Below are positions 9,473 through 22,074 of a DNA stretch of 64,000 bases, piece by piece. Both the position numbers and the translations under genes were made by a program. Position 1 is the stretch's first letter; each line of letters begins with the position of its first letter. The stretch is taken from NCBI RefSeq assembly GCF_001469875.2, contig NZ_LOPW02000022.1:135829-199828 (forward strand). Direction: 5' to 3'. The DNA is from Haloferax marisrubri. Lineage in GTDB: Archaea > Halobacteriota > Halobacteria > Halobacteriales > Haloferacaceae. Under the pieces are notes generated by a model. That model made no database searches. It was not told the origin of the DNA and saw nothing but the letters and a program-made list of their open reading frames with translations.

Positions 9473-10020
9473 GCCGGTCCGCCACCGACTCGGACGACTG
9501 GGCCGCCTCGTCGGACGACGACCGAGGTCAACTGGTGCTCGTCTCCGGGGCGGTCGTCGTCGTCGCCCTGCTCGCGCTTCTCGTCGTCCACGCGCAACTC
9601 GGCTTCGCCGGCGTGGCCGGGACGACCGAGCAACCACCGCTGAACGCCGTCGTGGGGACGACCGACGACGCGGTCGAACTGGCGACCGCCGGCGTCGCGG
9701 GCCGGTACGTCTGGGCGACGAGGGACGCCGCGGTCGAAGACTTCCGCTCGCGTCTCGACCCCGCGCTGACGAGCGTCGAACGCGCACACGCCGGCGAGGG
9801 TGGCGTCGCGCTGACGACGAACGACTCCGCGGCCGCCGGATGGGCGCTCAGAAACTGTCCCGACGGCCCGTACCGGGAGTTCGGCCCCTGCGTCGCCGAC
9901 GACGGTGTCGTCGTTCAAGAGCGCGCAGGGGAGACGGCCGTCGTCGCCGTCCTCGTCGATGTTCGAGTCGCCACGCCCCGCTCGCGGACGGACCTGACGG
10001 TCGCCGTACGCCCGAACTAA
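9469..10020 (+). CDS. Prepilin-like protein, last gene of the pilus operon
   Basis: 183 residues. The GTG at 9469 forms a GTGA overlap with the upstream stop and is preferred over the in-frame GTG at 9460. The N terminus is acidic, then DDRGQLVLVSGAVVVVALLALLVV: an RGQ motif directly before the hydrophobic helix, as in archaellin and pilin precursors. The exposed part has a Cys pair (RNCPDGP, GPCVADD) and is otherwise acidic. The operon ends here, 20 nt before the stop of a convergent gene. Confidence 0.72.
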   Translation: MSRSATDSDDWAASSDDDRGQLVLVSGAVVVVALLALLVVHAQLGFAGVAGTTEQPPLNAVVGTTDDAVELATAGVAGRYVWATRDAAVEDFRSRLDPALTSVERAHAGEGGVALTTNDSAAAGWALRNCPDGPYREFGPCVADDGVVVQERAGETAVVAVLVDVRVATPRSRTDLTVAVRPN

Positions 10021-10039
10021 CCGCCGGCCGAACCGGCGC

Positions 10040-10684
10040 TCACGCGCTCGGCACGTAGCCGAGGACTTCGTACGTGTGTTCGGCGTCGTCTTCCGGTTTG
10101 GACTCGGTGTACCGCGCCTCGTGGACCCGATCCAGTCGGGCGGCGAGGAGCGTCTTGTAGGCGTCCAGAATCGGTGCTTCGGTGAGCGGGGCTTCCGGCC
10201 CCTCGTCTTGGTCGACGATGTTCGCCATGCAGAGCACGCCGTCGGGAGCGAGTAGGCCCGCCACCACGTCGAGGAAGCGGTGGAACTCGGGAACGCTCAT
10301 CGTATCGCCCATGTAGTAGATGGTTTCGCTCCAGACGACGACGTCGAACTCCTCGTCGAGGCTGTCGAGATACGCGCTCGCCTCGCCGGCGAAGAACGTC
10401 GCCCGGTCGGTGTCAGTCCGCTCTCGCGCGCGCTCGACGGCGGCCTCGGAGATGTCGATTCCGTGGAGGTCCGCGTCGGGGAAGCGCTCCAAGAGGAGTT
10501 CCGAGTGCACGCCCTCGGCGCACCCGATTTCCAGAATCGAGTCCGGCGAGCCAACGTGGCTCTCGACAACGCGGTTCTGGCGGCGGTATTTGCGTTGCTC
10601 GTAGGTCGAGGAGTCGAAGTCCCACGGGTCCGGCTCGTCGAACTCGTCGTCGAAGTAGTCGGCGTTCCAGCCGTCGTTCGGCAC
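10040..10684 (-). CDS. NodS-like class I SAM-dependent methyltransferase
   Basis: 214 residues. Motif I is ILEIGCAEGVHS followed by the acidic HGIDIS strand end, so it should bind S-adenosylmethionine. The region before motif I (WDFDSSTYEQRKYRRQ) resembles the N terminus of NodS-like N-methyltransferases, which often act on sugars or small amines; the true substrate is unknown. It follows the RHH/SIS gene by about 1 nt, so the two almost certainly share a transcript. With a sugar-isomerase-type SIS domain next door, a modified-sugar role is possible but is only an inference. Confidence 0.8.
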   Translation of the reverse strand: MPNDGWNADYFDDEFDEPDPWDFDSSTYEQRKYRRQNRVVESHVGSPDSILEIGCAEGVHSELLLERFPDADLHGIDISEAAVERARERTDTDRATFFAGEASAYLDSLDEEFDVVVWSETIYYMGDTMSVPEFHRFLDVVAGLLAPDGVLCMANIVDQDEGPEAPLTEAPILDAYKTLLAARLDRVHEARYTESKPEDDAEHTYEVLGYVPSA

Positions 10685-10685
10685 G

Positions 10686-12089
10686 TTAGTTCACCTCCCC
10701 ATCGGTGGTCTCGGCCGGATTGTAAATGCTCTGGATGACCCGGGACTGGAGCGCCGGGTCCTGGAGCCAGAGTTTGCACAGAACCCCGTACGTGAACAAC
10801 TGAATCGCCGCGAAGAGGATGAGGTCTCGCGCCTCGGGTTCGACGGCGTAGGCGTCGAGTCGGACGAGGCCGTTCCGGCCGTACAGCGAGCGCTCGCGGA
10901 CGGCCTGCTCGGCCGGCCCGCCGTTCAGCGTGAACGCGATGAGCGGGACCTTCTGGTCGAAGTCCGCGGACTGGAGGACGTTCCACACGGAGGTTTCGTC
11001 GCCGAACAGCACGTCGTTCCACTCGCGATACGTCGCGGATCCCTGCTGTGGAATCGCCGTCACGAGGTAGCTCGAACCGCCGTGGAGGACGTTGACCAGG
11101 CGGTGGACGATGTTCTGGAGGTGCGCCGATTCGGCGTGGACGTGGAGAAATTCGGTGAGCTTGAGTTGCGCCTCGTTTCCGAGCCCGCGCTGTGACCCGA
11201 GCGTCCCGAATATCGGGTCGCTCTGGAGGTCGTTGTGGCGCTGGAGTTCTTCGATGGCCGCGAGTATCTCGCTTTGACCCGAGAGGCCGGCGGCGTCGTC
11301 GCCCTGTTTGAACTGGCCTTCGACGAACTCGTCGAGCGCCCTGAACCGGGCTTGAAACCGCTGGATATCGACGTAGTCGTCGAGGAAGACGACTTGGAGG
11401 ACGGCAAGTTGCGCGACCAGGCTTTTCGTCGCGTAGATGTCGATTCGCTCTTCGATGTCCGGAAGTGGGACGACGTGGTCGGCGCGCTCCGAGAGGGGGC
11501 TGTCCGGGTCGGTCACGGCGACGACGGTCGCCTGCTGGTTCGCACAGAGGTCGAGAACAGAATCCGTCTTCCCGCTCCGCGAGATGGCGACGATGGTGTC
11601 GTCCGTCGACGAGTGCATCTCGGTGGCTTCGACGCCGCTGCGGACCTGCGACCGGATGCCACGGTCGCGGAGGCGGTCGGCGAGCCAGTAGCCGACCGAC
11701 GTCGAGGACCCTTGCCCGGCGATAGTGACGACGCCGTCGGCGTCGAACACCGGCCGCCGAACCGCCTGTCGGAAGGCGTCGTCGGCGATGGTCTCCCAGA
11801 CCTGCGCTTCGATAGCCTCGTACACGCCCGTCCGCTCGCCCGTATCGCGTGCAATCGAACGAAGGTCGTCTTCGAACAGCTTCGGGATGTTGACCGACGT
11901 GCTGTCGTCTGTAAGGTTCGCCTTGATGACCGACCGCACGTATTCGGACGTTTTCTTGTTTTTCTGCTGGGCGATTTCGTCCACCTGCTGCTTGACCCGC
12001 TTTGAGACGCGGGCCTGGAGTATCTCGTCTTTCGTCATAGTCGCCGGTATGTCAAACGACGCGATAGTTCTTGTCATCGTGTATGTCAT
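10686..12089 (-). CDS. Ribbon-helix-helix plus SIS-domain protein (putative sugar-phosphate-sensing regulator)
   Basis: 467 residues. Residues about 20-65 resemble a CopG/Arc-type ribbon-helix-helix (ARVSKRVKQQVDEIAQQKNKKTSEYVRSVI). Residues about 110-245 form a SIS phosphosugar-binding domain, with VTIAGQGSSTS and AISRSGKTDSV matching the SIS phosphate and serine loops. The C-terminal 200 residues may be a second, degenerate SIS-like domain. The order DNA-binding domain then SIS recalls bacterial RpiR regulators, but with RHH instead of HTH. The ATG at 12089 lies about 28 nt from a TATA box at 12113-12120, supporting a leaderless start there; ATG 12038 is an alternative. Repeats in the promoter could be its own operators. 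Confidence 0.75.
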   Translation of the reverse strand: MTYTMTRTIASFDIPATMTKDEILQARVSKRVKQQVDEIAQQKNKKTSEYVRSVIKANLTDDSTSVNIPKLFEDDLRSIARDTGERTGVYEAIEAQVWETIADDAFRQAVRRPVFDADGVVTIAGQGSSTSVGYWLADRLRDRGIRSQVRSGVEATEMHSSTDDTIVAISRSGKTDSVLDLCANQQATVVAVTDPDSPLSERADHVVPLPDIEERIDIYATKSLVAQLAVLQVVFLDDYVDIQRFQARFRALDEFVEGQFKQGDDAAGLSGQSEILAAIEELQRHNDLQSDPIFGTLGSQRGLGNEAQLKLTEFLHVHAESAHLQNIVHRLVNVLHGGSSYLVTAIPQQGSATYREWNDVLFGDETSVWNVLQSADFDQKVPLIAFTLNGGPAEQAVRERSLYGRNGLVRLDAYAVEPEARDLILFAAIQLFTYGVLCKLWLQDPALQSRVIQSIYNPAETTDGEVN

Positions 12090-12130
12090 ACGATTTTGCC
12101 CTACTGTATACGCATATAAACTGTATACGC
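12081..12130. promoter_or_regulatory. Divergent promoter with repeated operator-like motifs
   Basis: CTGTATACGC occurs twice, at 12104-12113 and 12121-12130. GTATGTCATAC lies at 12081-12091 and the repeats contain the palindrome GTATAC. The TATA-like CATATAAA (12113-12120) sits between the two repeats and reads as a TATA box on either strand. These are candidate binding sites for the RHH domain of the gene starting at 12089. Confidence 0.5.
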
Positions 12131-12263
12131 GGGGTACAAAACACGGCTGATTATGTCACACGCAAGATATTTGTTTACAGTCATACAATCTGTTTGTGTG
12201 ACGCGAAGACGAAAACGAGACCGTCACGAGAACCCCTACAAACGCGATACACAACAGATTACG

Positions 12264-13139
12264 ATGGCCAACGACTCAACCCAACCCAGAAACTCGACGG
12301 AATCGGATTCGAACACTCTGAATATAGACATTAATTCGCGGCACGACCACGGGTGTACCCGCCCGGCGTCGGAGGCACCGGAACGGCCACCGTCCCTAAC
12401 GACCGTCGTCTTCCGAGCCACCCTCGCGGCGCTCGTCGTGCTTTCGATGTTCGCGGTCGCCGTCCCAGTCGTCACGGCCGACGCCGGCCCGGCGGCACTG
12501 TCCGGTCCCCCGACCGCTTCGGTGAGCGCGGACGAGGCGCTCGACGCCCGTGAGGCGGCGAAGGACAGACTCACGGAGCTCCGCCGCCTCGACGACCGAC
12601 CGATGGTCTCGGTCGAGGCGAGCACGCTCCAGACGGTCCAGAACCGCATCGAGACGGGGAACTTGAGCTACACGCGGGCGAACTACGACACCGCGGCCGA
12701 ACACTGGTCGGTCGCGGAGAAGCAGGCGACCGCGGCCCTCGCCCGCGCCTATGCCGAGGGGACCGAACGGAACCTCAACGCGACGGTCGGCTTCATCGAA
12801 AAGCGCGAAGCGGAGGGGTACGCGACGGCCGACACCGCCGAGTACACCGAGCGCGCCGCCGAACTGCGCGCACAGACCCCCGAGACGCTCGCCGACCACC
12901 GGAAGCGCTACCGGGAGGCCCGACAGCTCCACAGCGACGTCGAGTCGTCGCTGCCGTCGATGCACGCGGTCCGACTGGCGAACTGGCTGTCTCCGACGTG
13001 GTTCGCGGGCGGGGTTGTCGTCGCCCTCGGCGCGGTGACGATCGTCATCGGCTTCGCCCTCGGCCGCCGCGGACAGTCCAAATCGAAGACGAAACCCGAA
13101 ATAGACGACCGCGAGGTCGAGGAGTCCGGCCTCAGATAA
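12264..13139 (+). CDS. Exported, C-terminally membrane-anchored helical protein of unknown function
   Basis: 291 residues from ATG 12264. A hydrophobic segment near residues 48-70 (VVFRATLAALVVLSMFAVAVPVVTADA) looks like a signal peptide or anchor with an Ala-X-Ala-like end. Then come about 170 Ala/Glu/Arg-rich residues predicted to be helical or coiled-coil, and a transmembrane helix near the C terminus (WFAGGVVVALGAVTIVIGFALG) followed by a basic tail. Most of the protein should face outward. The start is uncertain: ATG 12153, nearer the shared TATA box, would add 37 basic residues. It is first in line with the unknown gene at 13158 and the JAMM gene at 14356. No family recognised. Confidence 0.65.
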   Translation: MANDSTQPRNSTESDSNTLNIDINSRHDHGCTRPASEAPERPPSLTTVVFRATLAALVVLSMFAVAVPVVTADAGPAALSGPPTASVSADEALDAREAAKDRLTELRRLDDRPMVSVEASTLQTVQNRIETGNLSYTRANYDTAAEHWSVAEKQATAALARAYAEGTERNLNATVGFIEKREAEGYATADTAEYTERAAELRAQTPETLADHRKRYREARQLHSDVESSLPSMHAVRLANWLSPTWFAGGVVVALGAVTIVIGFALGRRGQSKSKTKPEIDDREVEESGLR

Positions 13140-13157
13140 CCACTCACGGAGACATCT

Positions 13158-14309
13158 ATGAACATATCCAACTACGTACGCAACGCGGTTCCGTGGAGCG
13201 GCACCGACGAGTCGAACGACGACGCGGTCATCACCGACGGCGCGGGCGGCGGCGCGGTCGAGGCGAACGCGGCGGCGAATCGGCCGACCGGCGACAGCGA
13301 CGACCACGACGAGAACAGGGTGGGCGTGTTCTTCCCGCCGAACACGCTCGCGGACGTGGTGCGACGCGAGTGGTTCGCCCGCGCCGAGGAGATGCTCGGA
13401 ACGTCGATTCCGACGCGGTTCGTCCAGGACGTCCGACTCGGGCGCAACCCGCTTCGCATCGAGGACGTCACGCCGATGCTCGCCCCGGAAGTCGAGCGCG
13501 AACTGCTCAGGCTGTCGTACGACGCCGACCACGCGCTGGTCCCGTCGTCGCTCGGGACCGGCTTTCCGGCCTACAAGTTCGTCGACGTCGGCCTCGTCTT
13601 CGAGGAGACGGTCGACGTGGTCGTTCCCTCGCACAAGACCGCTGACGGGCTGCACAAGAACCCGCAGAACGCGCTGTTGGCCGGCCTCGGCGTCGCGGTC
13701 ATGGACGCGCCGGCGATACTCATCGACCACCGGGCGCAGGCGGTCGGGATGGACGACGTGCCACCGGAACTGGCGAAGTTCCTCGCGGCGACGACCCACA
13801 CCGACGTGGCGAACCGGTCGTTCGGCTACTGGAGCGCCGCGATGACGACGGTCCCAATCGGCGGGCGCGCCGAGATGGACCTCAACCCCGCGGTTCAGCG
13901 GGCGGCCAACAGCCTCACGCCGTGGCTGTCGGCCGAGCAGTGGGCCCCGTGGGCCATCGAAAACGGTGACATCGAACCCGACGCGACGGTCCCGACGCTG
14001 GCCGAGCCGGACCTGATGGTCGTCCTCCCCCACGGCGTCAGCCTCGGCCAGCACCACAACCTCCGGACGATTCACGCGGACGTGGCCAACGCCCACGTCG
14101 TCGGCTTCTGGCCGCTCGACGCGGCGTGGATACACACCCACGTCCGGCGGGCCGGCGCGGCGTACATCGACGCGGAAATCCACGACGAGTCGTCGCCGCT
14201 CCGGCAGGTGTGGGAGTCGCACACGGCCAAGTTCGGCGTGAGCGACCCCGTGGACCGATGGGAGCGCTTCTACGCCGAGCACGTCGAGCCGGCGCTCCCG
14301 GAGCAGTAA
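13158..14309 (+). CDS. Unknown soluble protein between an exported protein and a JAMM protease
   Basis: 383 residues, 18 nt after the previous gene and 46 nt before the JAMM gene. No signal peptide or membrane helix is seen. Residues about 15-55 are acidic and low-complexity; the rest is well-formed alpha/beta sequence with notable His-containing stretches (VVVPSHKTADGLHKN, LVVLPHGVSLGQHHN written loosely, AAWIHTHVRRAG). I cannot assign a family. Its placement suggests it works with the membrane JAMM protein, perhaps as a substrate, adaptor or conjugation-related partner, but nothing in the sequence proves this. Confidence 0.65.
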   Translation: MNISNYVRNAVPWSGTDESNDDAVITDGAGGGAVEANAAANRPTGDSDDHDENRVGVFFPPNTLADVVRREWFARAEEMLGTSIPTRFVQDVRLGRNPLRIEDVTPMLAPEVERELLRLSYDADHALVPSSLGTGFPAYKFVDVGLVFEETVDVVVPSHKTADGLHKNPQNALLAGLGVAVMDAPAILIDHRAQAVGMDDVPPELAKFLAATTHTDVANRSFGYWSAAMTTVPIGGRAEMDLNPAVQRAANSLTPWLSAEQWAPWAIENGDIEPDATVPTLAEPDLMVVLPHGVSLGQHHNLRTIHADVANAHVVGFWPLDAAWIHTHVRRAGAAYIDAEIHDESSPLRQVWESHTAKFGVSDPVDRWERFYAEHVEPALPEQ

Positions 14310-14355
14310 GCCGCACCGTCCACAGACGACCCGCGACTCCGCGTTTTCACCGACC

Positions 14356-17040
14356 ATGACAGACGATATCCAACTCGTAGAACTGAGCGCAGTCATCGAC
14401 CCGACCGACGACGACCACGAGCGCGCCGACGAACCGAGCGACAGCGACCCCGACCGACGCCGCTGGCTCCGCTGGGTCGCGGTCGGAGTGACGGCCGCCG
14501 CGCTCCTCGGACTGAGCGCGCTCGCGGTCGTAGACCCGGCTGCGGGCGACGCGGTCGCCTTCCCGAGCCTCGGTCTACTGGGAGCGACGCCGACGCTCCG
14601 ACCGCGCCTGCGGGCGTTCCGACGGGCCGTGAGGAGACTGGTCCCGTTTCGGACGAACCGAGACGAACCACCGGACCGGCGAAAAGCGAGCGACTCGTCG
14701 CTCGATGGGCCGGGCGTTGCGGGCGAGGGCGACCCTGACGACTCCGAAGAAGCCGACCCGACCCCGGACGCCCCGGACCGCGCGGACGGAGACGACGCGA
14801 GCGACGCCAGCGACCCGCCGTCGATTTCGGTGAGCCGCCTATCCGACGAGCGGGACGTGTCCGTCATCGTCGACCACCTCATGCGCGCGTCGGACTCGCG
14901 GCCGCTCCCGGACGCGTTCGGCGTCGTCTCGCCCATCAAGCGCCCGCTGGCGTCGACGCTCGAAGGCATCCCGCGGGAACTCGGCGTTCACTGTCGGGAC
15001 GTGAGTCCCGTTCTCGTCGGGACCGCGAACAACGAGACGACCGTCGAGCGCCTCGGACGGACGTACGAGCTACTGCTCGTGGTCACCCCGGACCACGAGG
15101 CTGTCCTCTCAGACGTGCTCCGGTACCTCCCGGCGCTGATTCGGACCGATGGGGTCTCCGGTATCGGGTCGGTTCGAACCGTGACACTCCCGGCGTCGGA
15201 CCGACCCGGGACCGAACGCGAGAGCCAAGGGACCCTGAAGGCGCTCCGCGGACACAAGGGCGAGCCACGACACCCGATGGCCCGGACCGAGCCCGACTTT
15301 ATCGCCGCATCGGCACCGTCCGAGTGGACGGGACCCGTCCGGTCGGTGCTGTCCGACTACGCGCCGGTCATCGAGGTCGTCGAATGGGACCGCGCCGCAA
15401 TTCACGTCGCGGGGTTCGTGTTCGCGTCGGCGGTGGACCTCCCCGACCACGTGACCGCGTCCAGCGACGACTCGACGGAGCGCATTCCGCGCGGAGCTTC
15501 GTCGTCTGACGACGCCGACGGGCGACCGACCGCGACTGGCAGTTCGACGCCGACTGGCAGTTCAGCCCCCGCTGAGGAGTCAACGACTACCTCCCCGCCC
15601 GAGTCCGACGATGCGTCACCTACCGGCTCGACGCCCGAATCGACGGGTGAAGAACCCCCGAAATCGACCGATTCGGACGACGGGGCGGCGCCCCGCGACG
15701 AGACGACACAACAGACCACCACGGACGGCGGCCGGGCGTCAGGCGGGACCTACCCGTCCGGCTCCTCGCAGGTGTCCCCGCAAACGAGAGGTGATGAACC
15801 CGAGGGGGGCGCACCGCGGACTGATGCGGAATCAGACGACTCGACGATCGGACCGACCCCCGAACAGGACGGGACGGACCGGTCGAGTCAGGGGCCCGAT
15901 TCGGCACCGGAGACAGACGGGGCGAGTCCGGGCGCTGGCGGTCCCGAAGCCGGGTCGGATGCCGACGACGCCGACGCAGATGACGCCGAGGGTCCAGGTG
16001 GCGCTGACAGCGCTGACGGTACTGACGGAACTCCCGAGACGGGAGGCGACACGCCACCGAGCGAACGCGCGCCGTCGGACGACGCGGACACCTCGGCGGG
16101 GACGCCCACGAAGCCCCCGAGCGAGTCGACTCAGCCGCCTTCCGAGTCGGACGACTCAGCTCCCGGGTCGGACTCCGCGAAAGTGACGCCCGAGAGCCGG
16201 TCGACTGCGCCCGAGCGCGGAACGAATCCTCCGTCCCCGGGCGGAGCGCCGAGCGGCCGAGTGCCGTCCGACGACGAGGCGTCGCAGACTGCACCGAAGT
16301 CCGAGACGGCGCTCCCGGCGGAGTTTCCGGTCCCCGCGGGGACGACTCCGGGCGACGAAGCCGACAGTTCGCCGAGCGGTGACGGTTCGAAATCGCCCTC
16401 GTCGGAGCCGTCAGCGACGCGACCCGGGGAATCGTCAGCGTCGCCGGCGGCAACCCCCGAGACACCCGCGGACGATGTCGACGCCGGTGCGGGAATCGTC
16501 CCGTTCGGCGACGCGCCCGCGTCGAGCGACCCCTCGGTCGTCGACGTGACCGAACACGTGCTGAACGAACTGACGTTTCAGGCCACGGCGACGCCGGGGC
16601 GAGAGGTCTACTCGACGGTGTACGCGGACGAGCAGGGGCTGATTCGGCACCACCACGCCATCGATCACCCGGACTTCCTCCGGAGTCGCACGGACTCCAT
16701 CTCCTTCACGCCGGAGTTCTTCTCGCACCTCCGGCGACTGGCCAGCCTCCACAAGGACATCGACCACCGACTCGCCGGCGGCGCACACTCCCACCCGGTG
16801 AGCGGGCAACCGCTCCAGAGTGGCGCGGACAAGCGGTTCGTTCGGAAAGTCTGGCGGAACACCCGAAACACCTCGTTCATCGTCGGCGTGACCGAGGGCG
16901 AGGGTCCGGACGAGTGGACGATTGCGGATGACGGCCGTGAAGTCCGACGACAGTCCAACGACCACCTCGTCCGAATCCGCGCGTTCTCGGGACGGAACGA
17001 GCCGAAGCGGATTCGACTCCATCAGAACATGGGCCAGTAG
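14356..17040 (+). CDS. Membrane-anchored protein with C-terminal JAMM (JAB1/MPN) metalloprotease domain
   Basis: 894 residues. Layout: acidic N terminus; one or two membrane helices near residues 36-75; an alpha/beta domain of about 180 residues (about 160-345); a very long Ser/Pro/Thr/Asp/Glu-rich disordered linker (about 365-735); and a C-terminal domain with the full JAMM signature, Glu750 then H811-S-H813-P-x7-S822-x2-D825. JAMM enzymes are zinc isopeptidases that cut ubiquitin or ubiquitin-like (SAMP) chains, or deaminate small molecules. All zinc and catalytic residues are present, so activity is expected. The membrane tether and long flexible linker are unlike the small soluble haloarchaeal JAMM proteins. 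Substrate unknown. Confidence 0.8.
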   Translation: MTDDIQLVELSAVIDPTDDDHERADEPSDSDPDRRRWLRWVAVGVTAAALLGLSALAVVDPAAGDAVAFPSLGLLGATPTLRPRLRAFRRAVRRLVPFRTNRDEPPDRRKASDSSLDGPGVAGEGDPDDSEEADPTPDAPDRADGDDASDASDPPSISVSRLSDERDVSVIVDHLMRASDSRPLPDAFGVVSPIKRPLASTLEGIPRELGVHCRDVSPVLVGTANNETTVERLGRTYELLLVVTPDHEAVLSDVLRYLPALIRTDGVSGIGSVRTVTLPASDRPGTERESQGTLKALRGHKGEPRHPMARTEPDFIAASAPSEWTGPVRSVLSDYAPVIEVVEWDRAAIHVAGFVFASAVDLPDHVTASSDDSTERIPRGASSSDDADGRPTATGSSTPTGSSAPAEESTTTSPPESDDASPTGSTPESTGEEPPKSTDSDDGAAPRDETTQQTTTDGGRASGGTYPSGSSQVSPQTRGDEPEGGAPRTDAESDDSTIGPTPEQDGTDRSSQGPDSAPETDGASPGAGGPEAGSDADDADADDAEGPGGADSADGTDGTPETGGDTPPSERAPSDDADTSAGTPTKPPSESTQPPSESDDSAPGSDSAKVTPESRSTAPERGTNPPSPGGAPSGRVPSDDEASQTAPKSETALPAEFPVPAGTTPGDEADSSPSGDGSKSPSSEPSATRPGESSASPAATPETPADDVDAGAGIVPFGDAPASSDPSVVDVTEHVLNELTFQATATPGREVYSTVYADEQGLIRHHHAIDHPDFLRSRTDSISFTPEFFSHLRRLASLHKDIDHRLAGGAHSHPVSGQPLQSGADKRFVRKVWRNTRNTSFIVGVTEGEGPDEWTIADDGREVRRQSNDHLVRIRAFSGRNEPKRIRLHQNMGQ

Positions 17041-17455
17041 TCGTGGCGAGGGTCAAGAGACAGAATACCTTGATATTTGATGTTTTTAATAAAACATATT
17101 ATATCATAGAATTGTTCGGTGACACAGGCGAACATCTCATCCGACAAAAGAAACCGTATTTTTAGCAGTCAAATCGGGGGAAGTAGGCCAAATCCCACAT
17201 ACACACACGGTGTACTCGCAACACCGATTCGAAAATAGAGGGCACCACGAATATCGGCTCATCAGCCACCAAAACAAGGATTCAAGAGATATCTGACAGC
17301 GTAACCAAACAGTACCGCTATCACAGACGCTCAAACATATCTACTCACAGTACATCAAATAATTCTGTGATGTTCGGGTTGCGAACGTAGTCGGCGCTGT
17401 GTCGTCGAGCGTGCGCCGACCGGACGCACCGCTGACCGGTTCGGCCCGAACTCGT
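17041..17455. other. AT-rich intergenic region
   Basis: About 415 bp between the ends of two convergent genes. 17070-17350 is much more AT-rich than its surroundings, with T-tracts such as GATGTTTTTAAT near 17078 that could end the JAMM operon. I see no coding frame with haloarchaeal codon bias and no clear RNA gene. The low GC content may mark transferred or decaying DNA. Confidence 0.5.
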
Positions 17456-18103
17456 TCAGTACGACAGCGTCCACTGGCGGTCGATAAGCCAGTCGTCCAA
17501 CTTCCCGAGCGGGTCCTCCGCGACGTGCGACCCGTGGCTCACGAGGACCGTCTCGATGTCGTAGTCGAACAGTTTGATGAGATTCCGCTCGGCCTCCTCG
17601 TGGCTCAGGTCGTTGAACTGCGCCGCGGGCGGGACGAGGAACCCCGGCGGGAGGCCGCGGCGGTCCGAGCCCTCCAGTACGTCGCCGGCGATGAAGACGC
17701 CCTCGTCTTCCAAGAGGAGGCCGCTGTTCGCGACCGTGTGACCGGGGACCTGCACGATTCGAATCCCGCCGTCGAGGACCTCGTCGTGGCGGAAGTGCCG
17801 GTCGGCCTCGACGTCGAGCGCGTCGTAGAACCCCTTCGCGCCGCCGGGGACGAGGAGTTCGGGGTCGAACGCGTCCAACACCGCGGGCGTCCCGCCGAAG
17901 TGGCCCTCGTCGCCGTGGGTGATGATGAAGCGGTCGACGCCGCCGAACTCCGAGCCCAGTACGGACACCAGTTCGTCGCCGTCGTCGGGGAACGCCGTGT
18001 CGACCAGCGTGGTCGTGCCAGTCGGTCGGTCTTCGAGGACGAACACGCGGACGTGGTCGAACTGTATCGTGTACACGCCGTCTGCGACTGCTGTTACTGT
18101 CAT
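17456..18103 (-). CDS. Metallo-beta-lactamase-fold hydrolase (paralog 1)
   Basis: 215 residues of the MBL superfamily. The usual metal motif HxHxDH appears here as H-G-D-E-G-H (in FIITHGDEGHFGG): the second His is Asp and the Asp is Gly. Later ligand-like residues are kept (VPGHT, FIAGDVL, SHGSH). It is clearly paralogous along its whole length to the protein encoded at 21427-22074, which has the same two changes. The pair flanks the uspA-tctAB segment. The substrate is unknown; hydrolysis of a thioester or lactone in the same catabolic pathway is a reasonable guess. Confidence 0.8.
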   Translation of the reverse strand: MTVTAVADGVYTIQFDHVRVFVLEDRPTGTTTLVDTAFPDDGDELVSVLGSEFGGVDRFIITHGDEGHFGGTPAVLDAFDPELLVPGGAKGFYDALDVEADRHFRHDEVLDGGIRIVQVPGHTVANSGLLLEDEGVFIAGDVLEGSDRRGLPPGFLVPPAAQFNDLSHEEAERNLIKLFDYDIETVLVSHGSHVAEDPLGKLDDWLIDRQWTLSY

Positions 18104-21426: not shown

Positions 21427-22074
21427 ATGAGTGTTAGCAACGTCACCGAGGGTATCGACCAGATTCAGTTCGAACACGTCCGGGTGCTCGTGTTGAAGGA
21501 CACGCCGGCGGGCAAGACGACGCTCGTGGACACCGGCTTCGACGAGGACGGCGACGAACTCGTCGAGATTCTGGAGCGGGAGTACGGCGGCGTCGACCGC
21601 GTCATCATCACCCACGGCGACCACGGCCACCACGGCGGCCTCCCGTCGGTGATGGAGGCGTTCGACCCCGAACTCCTCGCGTCGGCCAACGAGTCGAAGC
21701 TCCACGAGGCCATCGACTACGAACCGGACGTGGCGTTCACCGACGGCGACGTGCTCGACGGGAACATCCGCGTCATCGAGGTGCCGGGCCACACGAAGGC
21801 GACGTCGGCGCTCCTGCTCGAAGACCGCGGGATTCTCATCTCCGGGGACGCCCTCGACGGGGCCGACCGCGCGGGCCTCCCGGCCGGCTACCTCCTCCCG
21901 CCGCCGGCGCTGTTCAACGACGACCACAAGGCCGCAGAGATCAACCTCTACGACCTGCTCCAGTACGACTTCGAGACGCTGCTCGTCTTCCACGGCTCGC
22001 ACGTCTTCGAGGACCCCAAGGGCAAACTCGACGACTTCCTCGTCGAGCGCGAGTGGGACCCCCGGCCGGAGTGA
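21427..22074 (+). CDS. Metallo-beta-lactamase-fold hydrolase (paralog 2)
   Basis: 215 residues, full-length paralog of the protein at 17456-18103. The metal motif is again altered: IITHGDHGHHGG gives H-G-D-H-G-H in place of HxHxDH. Other family landmarks are present (VPGHTKATS, LISGDALDG, FHGSHV). The ATG at 21427 matches the N terminus of the paralog. It is transcribed away from tctBA and toward the zinc-type dehydrogenase gene. Confidence 0.8.
   Translation: MSVSNVTEGIDQIQFEHVRVLVLKDTPAGKTTLVDTGFDEDGDELVEILEREYGGVDRVIITHGDHGHHGGLPSVMEAFDPELLASANESKLHEAIDYEPDVAFTDGDVLDGNIRVIEVPGHTKATSALLLEDRGILISGDALDGADRAGLPAGYLLPPPALFNDDHKAAEINLYDLLQYDFETLLVFHGSHVFEDPKGKLDDFLVEREWDPRPE

Follow-up and report, generated by a model that had tools for sequence, protein, structure and literature searches.

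Does the JAMM motif near the end of an 894-residue membrane protein of Haloferax marisrubri belong to a genuine, membrane-attached peptidase-like domain, and do the 2 genes located immediately upstream form a unit with it? We addressed this question in a window of 64,000 nucleotides (the whole stretch of DNA analyzed, to which positions refer unless another locus is named), in which 3 genes lie in a row on the forward strand: gene A (12264..13139), encoding a membrane protein of 291 aa and having an alternative in-frame start further upstream at 12153; gene B (13158..14309), encoding a soluble protein of 383 aa; and gene C (14356..17040), encoding a membrane-anchored JAMM protein of 894 aa. 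The 3 genes are real, and their open reading frames, coordinates and the product lengths of B and C agree with those given in an earlier note on this DNA, as does their close tandem arrangement, with 18 nt separating A from B and 46 nt separating B from C. No family in Pfam, NCBIfam, PHROGs or PADLOC covers any of the 3 window proteins, which bears out the suggestion that the 2 partners of C, A and B, belong to no known family.

Distribution and insertion site of the trio

Gene B is present in 4 of the 15 genomes of the genus and in 4 of the 148 genomes sampled in the family, as well as in 1 genome of another family (G269), with no further copy among 146 genomes of the latter family. The sixth match of the class-level search, in G415 (E = 0.0066), was judged to be due to chance because it falls on frames that are antisense or belong to an unrelated gene. 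Plasmids and viral contigs hold no copy of B, and no relatives were found when viral contigs were scanned with A, B, the N-terminal domain of C and the JAMM domain, phages with B and the JAMM domain, or plasmids with B, the JAMM domain and the variant proteins B' and C' described below. The earlier note had proposed to check whether the 3 genes are neighbours elsewhere. Indeed, A, B and C are adjacent and in the same order in all 5 carriers, namely 4 Haloferax species (the source organism and 3 others) and G269, A and B being about 20 nt apart in Haloferax and about 10 nt apart in G269, and B and C about 50 and about 40 nt apart, respectively. Everything else around the trio of G269 differs from Haloferax, which shows that the trio moves as a unit. 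As judged from these genome comparisons, the trio is rare, mobile and patchily distributed, being absent from most relatives. Haloarchaeal genomes were sampled in part, and the core of the system (A together with the N-terminal half of C) was found in 7 genomes in all, 5 with the trio and 2 with variant loci, a number at which co-occurrence statistics are thin. The trio of G269 resides on a contig of 127 kb that carries a ParA gene and lies 2.5 kb from a cluster of YcaO, nitroreductase and methyltransferase genes (L034 14504-18703) resembling a thiazole/oxazole-modified peptide pathway.

In Haloferax, the variable site occupied by the trio (10020-17456) is bounded by a pilin-like gene and a metallo-beta-lactamase gene. 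It holds the trio block in 4 species and a TetR gene with a gene for an export-like protein in G127 and G091, and is empty in G107, where the flanks of the block (about 10030 and 17456 in the window) are just 436 nt apart. The Haloferax block also includes, on the opposite strand, genes for a methyltransferase (10040-10684) and a SIS-domain regulator (10686-12089), neither of which adjoins the trio in G269. All that G097 retains is a truncated 3' remnant, the final 45 codons of C (L017 10338-10472), the cassette having apparently been lost there by rearrangement. Next to the remnant are aroD-like DNA (at about 28.9 kb in the window) and an unrelated stretch encoding primase-like and HerA-like ATPase proteins. 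The window also contains 2 inverted metallo-beta-lactamase-like copies (17471-18068 and 21462-22056), about 72% identical to each other, which flank a UspA/TctA region.

Architecture of the proteins and identity of the JAMM domain

Protein A had been described as an exported coiled-coil protein. Hydropathy does place a helical domain outside, but A is probably anchored rather than simply exported: the predicted order is an N-terminal signal or anchor (residues ~42-70), the outside helical domain, a second membrane segment in the form of a C-terminal helix (residues ~242-268) and a short, predicted cytosolic tail, the last residues of which are an invariant LR. The dN/dS of A is 0.31-0.48 and that of B is 0.21-0.33, with B being 92-96% identical within Haloferax and 59% identical in G269. 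A PDB sequence search with the B profile returned chance matches only. Shallow alignments yield poor structure models, and the AlphaFold2 models of B and C, built from 5-sequence alignments, reached pLDDT values of 30-33, too poor for fold searches.

For C, the membrane attachment claimed in the earlier note stands, but a hairpin is likelier than a single helix, given that hydropathy predicts 2 hydrophobic segments (residues about 37-60 and 65-82, within 14464..14601, + strand) with Arg on either flank, which stand out best in the orthologue from G269 and the variant C'. By the positive-inside rule, applied to hydropathy and charge only, both termini of C, and hence the JAMM domain, are most likely cytosolic; of the membrane-side location proposed before, this predicted topology retains the cytosolic face only. 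Further along the protein lie a conserved N-terminal domain of ~200 residues that is also found in the JAMM-less C' proteins (residues 165-365; 14848..15450), a linker (residues 366-712; 15451..16491) and the JAMM/Prok-JAB domain (residues 713-894; 16492..17037), all on the forward strand. The linker, rich in S, P, D, T, G and A and poor in K, is long, as had been noted, but comprises 347 rather than ~370 residues (298-359 in orthologues). It evolves fast: its dN/dS is 0.50-0.60 in comparisons within the genus, and it is 28% identical to its G269 counterpart, C overall being 45% identical. The corresponding dN/dS values are 0.05-0.09 within the genus and 0.23 to G269 for the N-terminal domain, and 0.03-0.05 and 0.08 for the JAMM domain, which is more constrained than any other part of the cassette, with synonymous sites near saturation in the comparison to G269. 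This pattern suggests a flexible tether joining 2 constrained folded parts. The N-terminal domain weakly resembles, over part of its length, a Usp-like protein located next to a permease (E about 1e-3), which we treat as a lead only, and shows no similarity to a canonical Usp. An E2-like catalytic Cys in this domain was considered and rejected because the Haloferax Cys is replaced by Arg in G269.

The intact JAMM motif reported for C is present in full. The predicted catalytic glutamate, E750 (16603..16605, + strand), which aligns with the glutamate of other JABs, and residues H811, H813, S822 and D825 of the predicted zinc motif HSHPVSGQPLQSGAD (16786..16830, + strand) are invariant in all 5 full-length orthologues. 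The zinc motif is 1 residue longer than in HvJAMM1/2 and has the length found in E1-JAB proteins. A pattern of the form H.HP-x(4,9)-S..D occurs once in the 356 six-frame ORFs of the window, compared to 0.115 occurrences expected from shuffles. In the comparison with Pfam JAB profiles that the earlier note had proposed, the G269 domain matches Prok-JAB over almost its whole length (E = 0.0058), with RadC-JAB second, but its 16.9 bits are below the curated cut-off of 25 (Prok-JAB, PF14464), and the window protein is scored by no Pfam JAB model. Undoubted JAB-E1 proteins also fall below the cut-off (17.5 and 17.9 bits; E = 0.0028-0.0039), which therefore cannot tell members from non-members in this subtype; our claim for the C domain is one of homology to JAB domains, not of curated Pfam assignment.

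When the trio JAMM profile was compared with 391 haloarchaeal genomes, the best non-orthologous matches, besides the remnant in G097, were JAB-E1 proteins in 4 genomes, at the motif. Hhalign related the domain to E1-JAB (P = 1.7e-4) and to 2 standalone JAMMs of the same genome (P = 1e-4, 123 columns). A 5-sequence haloarchaeal JAB HMM, which includes 2 sequences first found through the trio's own profile, recovered C as the sole ORF of the window (E = 1.2e-7) and placed E750 opposite the glutamate of the JABs. An HMM of 3 independent JAMMs, built without these first-found E1-JAB relatives, did not find the C domain, and the link to JAMMs therefore runs through the E1-JAB subtype. A PDB sequence search with the JAMM profile gave chance matches only, the AlphaFold2 model of the domain from the 5-sequence alignment had a pLDDT of 30, and a similarity of the region to BREX-5 PglX (E = 0.0098) was judged to be due to chance. 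Collectively, the invariant residues, the homology tests and the 2 predicted membrane segments indicate that the JAMM/Prok-JAB domain of C is genuine and membrane-attached, as the earlier note had it.

A variant core and relatives in ubiquitin-like systems

The A profile also detected a homologue, A', in G249 (E = 1.4e-20; hhalign of A' and A, P = 5e-15), and G448 has the same locus. In both genomes, A' is followed by a 369-residue protein, B', and then by C', a protein of 346 residues comprising 2 membrane segments and the N-terminal domain (P = 5.7e-6), without the long linker and without JAMM. No relation of B' was detected to B (hhalign P = 0.27; shuffles z about 1) or to JAMM. Given that A' and C' occur without B or JAMM, A and the N-terminal half of C constitute the persistent core, whereas B and JAMM belong to one version; JAMM is thus not obligatory for the module, which the earlier note had not foreseen. 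This pair of A and the N-terminal half of C looks like a reusable membrane core, to which JAMM, with B, would be attached as an effector. A YdjM-like membrane protein is encoded directly after C' in G249 and G448 (L106 12092-12676; L112 7214-7840) and, in G269, downstream of C after a poly-gamma-glutamate hydrolase gene (L034 5375-6013); it is possibly a fourth member in that family.

JAMM proteins belong to a family of zinc enzymes that strip off ubiquitin-like modifiers. Those of haloarchaea are not all small, contrary to what had been assumed, because this and other genomes encode JAB-E1 fusions of 600-690 residues. The JAB-E1 (ThiF) fusions of Ubl/E2/JAB-E1 operons, type 6e with Prok-E2_E neighbours (Iyer et al. 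2006, PMC1779556), share the JAMM subtype of C, as well as profile similarity, HSHP-x7-S-x2-D spacing, patchy distribution and, in some loci, an integrase-like neighbour. For JAB genes in patchily distributed operons, a role in adding modifications to target proteins and removing them again has been proposed (PMC1779556). Unlike C, which is membrane-tethered and has 2 unrelated partners, the JAB of these systems is soluble, fused to E1 and accompanied by Ubl and E2 genes. JAB-E1 genes were found in 4 other haloarchaeal genomes (L036 5152-8002; L026, L027, L028). Two JAB-E1 loci were read in detail: 1 has a confirmed Prok-E2_E gene adjoining and both have an integrase-like gene near. In G205, the gene for a Prok-E2_E protein (E = 5.8e-11) overlaps the JAB-E1 gene, and an integrase-like gene is close by. 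The genome of H. marisrubri itself contains a compact operon (G000:C16:90104-93436; L116 4105-7437) for 2 small Ubl-looking proteins, recognized by inspection, an E2-like protein with a weak Prok-E2_E match and a JAB-E1 fusion, which together look like a haloarchaeal ubiquitin-like conjugation system.

The SAMP/ubiquitin-like connection suggested for the trio is supported indirectly, by the closeness of its JAMM domain to the JABs of E1-JAB proteins in Ubl/E2 operons, but the cassette contains no E1, E2 or Ubl gene. Likewise, no such genes were found beside the trio, among the immediate neighbours in the window and G269 or in the collinear flanks in G076, G117 and G102; B and the N-terminal domain of C could hide E1, E2 or Ubl folds. 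The HvJAMM1 and HvJAMM2 desampylases of Haloferax (PF14464) share the domain family and catalytic residues with C, but are about 135-160 aa long, have a shorter HSHP-x6-S-x2-D motif and lack membrane segments and such partners. Proteins that are anchored in the membrane and carry a peptidase domain on a tether follow, by analogy only, the same plan, in which a sensor core is anchored and a hydrolase is tethered to it; no sequence relation was found.

Possible roles of the cassette

The conservation of the trio, the invariance of the catalytic residues and the strong purifying selection acting on the 2 folded regions of C indicate that the trio is real and functional-looking. In the reading that we prefer, and to which we give roughly even chances, it is a horizontally spread membrane module, the effector of which, a putative JAMM zinc (iso)peptidase held in the cytosol on a tether, would cut behind a Ubl tag or in B. 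We infer a cytosolic, enzymatically active JAMM domain and a contact between A and C: A would show its helical domain outside and meet the hairpin of C in the membrane, forming the core, whereas the N-terminal domain of C would lie on the cytosolic face and, together with B, as adaptor or substrate, control or feed JAMM. On its disordered tether of ~350 residues, JAMM would reach substrates in the cytosol and, with the core engaged, hydrolyse a peptide or isopeptide bond behind the presumed Ubl tag or in B. Having no conjugating half, the trio would act on host-made conjugates or on B.

Alternatively, C could be a membrane-anchored SAMP/Ubl deconjugase of membrane proteins, with A and B selecting substrates among conjugates produced by the host UbaA/SAMP or a Ubl-E2-E1 system; we entertain this tentatively, as somewhat improbable, since prokaryotic JABs also act on proteins other than Ubl conjugates and no trio locus contains a Ubl or E1 gene. 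It would fit the location of the nearest JAB relatives in Ubl/E2/JAB-E1 operons, the presence of such an operon elsewhere in this genome (G000:C16 90104-93436) and the cleavage of the SAMP1-MoaE conjugate by Haloferax HvJAMM1 (PMC4443979). Regulated proteolysis, in which an outside signal received via A would free JAMM to cut B or a partner of B and thereby change expression or transport, appears unlikely. The hydropathy-based topology would suit it, with an outside domain and 2 membrane segments in A, a tethered cytosolic enzyme in C and a soluble B encoded between them, but B lacks any signature of DNA binding or of an enzyme, no site of cleavage was identified, and the variant locus has neither B nor JAMM.

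The patchy distribution, the variable insertion site with its empty counterpart, the truncated remnant in G097 and the swapping of the middle gene and the C-terminal domain in the variant are consistent with a defence cassette, directed at phages or acting between elements, whose effectors can be exchanged. Such a role is nevertheless distinctly unlikely, as PADLOC (empty at E<=1), PHROGs, viral, phage and plasmid searches yielded no match and the same site in other species is occupied by TetR and export genes, not defence genes; what is left of the defence module envisaged in the earlier note is that the trio is mobile and patchily distributed and sits at a variable locus. That the motif arose by chance or is a degenerate JAMM, devoid of an enzymatic role, as the silence of the Pfam JAB models on the window protein might imply, is very improbable: the 5 residues are fully conserved at 45% overall identity to G269, the dN/dS of the domain is 0.03-0.08, and the Prok-JAB match of the G269 domain, hhalign and the JAB HMM point to homology.

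Carrying on with the horizontally spread membrane module and its JAMM effector, it is conceivable, if doubtful, that the trio represents an archaeal membrane-signalling module not described before, in which a conserved pair of A and the N-terminal half of C bears exchangeable cytosolic parts, one of them a tethered JAMM deconjugase of Ubl tags at the inner membrane face. The JAMM-less modular variant offers a handle on the role of the core, and the proposal is directly testable, with H. gibbonsii and H. prahovense being natural carriers of the cassette and genetics existing for H. volcanii. To our knowledge, archaeal ubiquitin-like chemistry is known almost only as soluble; if the proposal is true, a membrane-bound JAMM with dedicated partners would place deconjugation, and its regulation, at the archaeal membrane.
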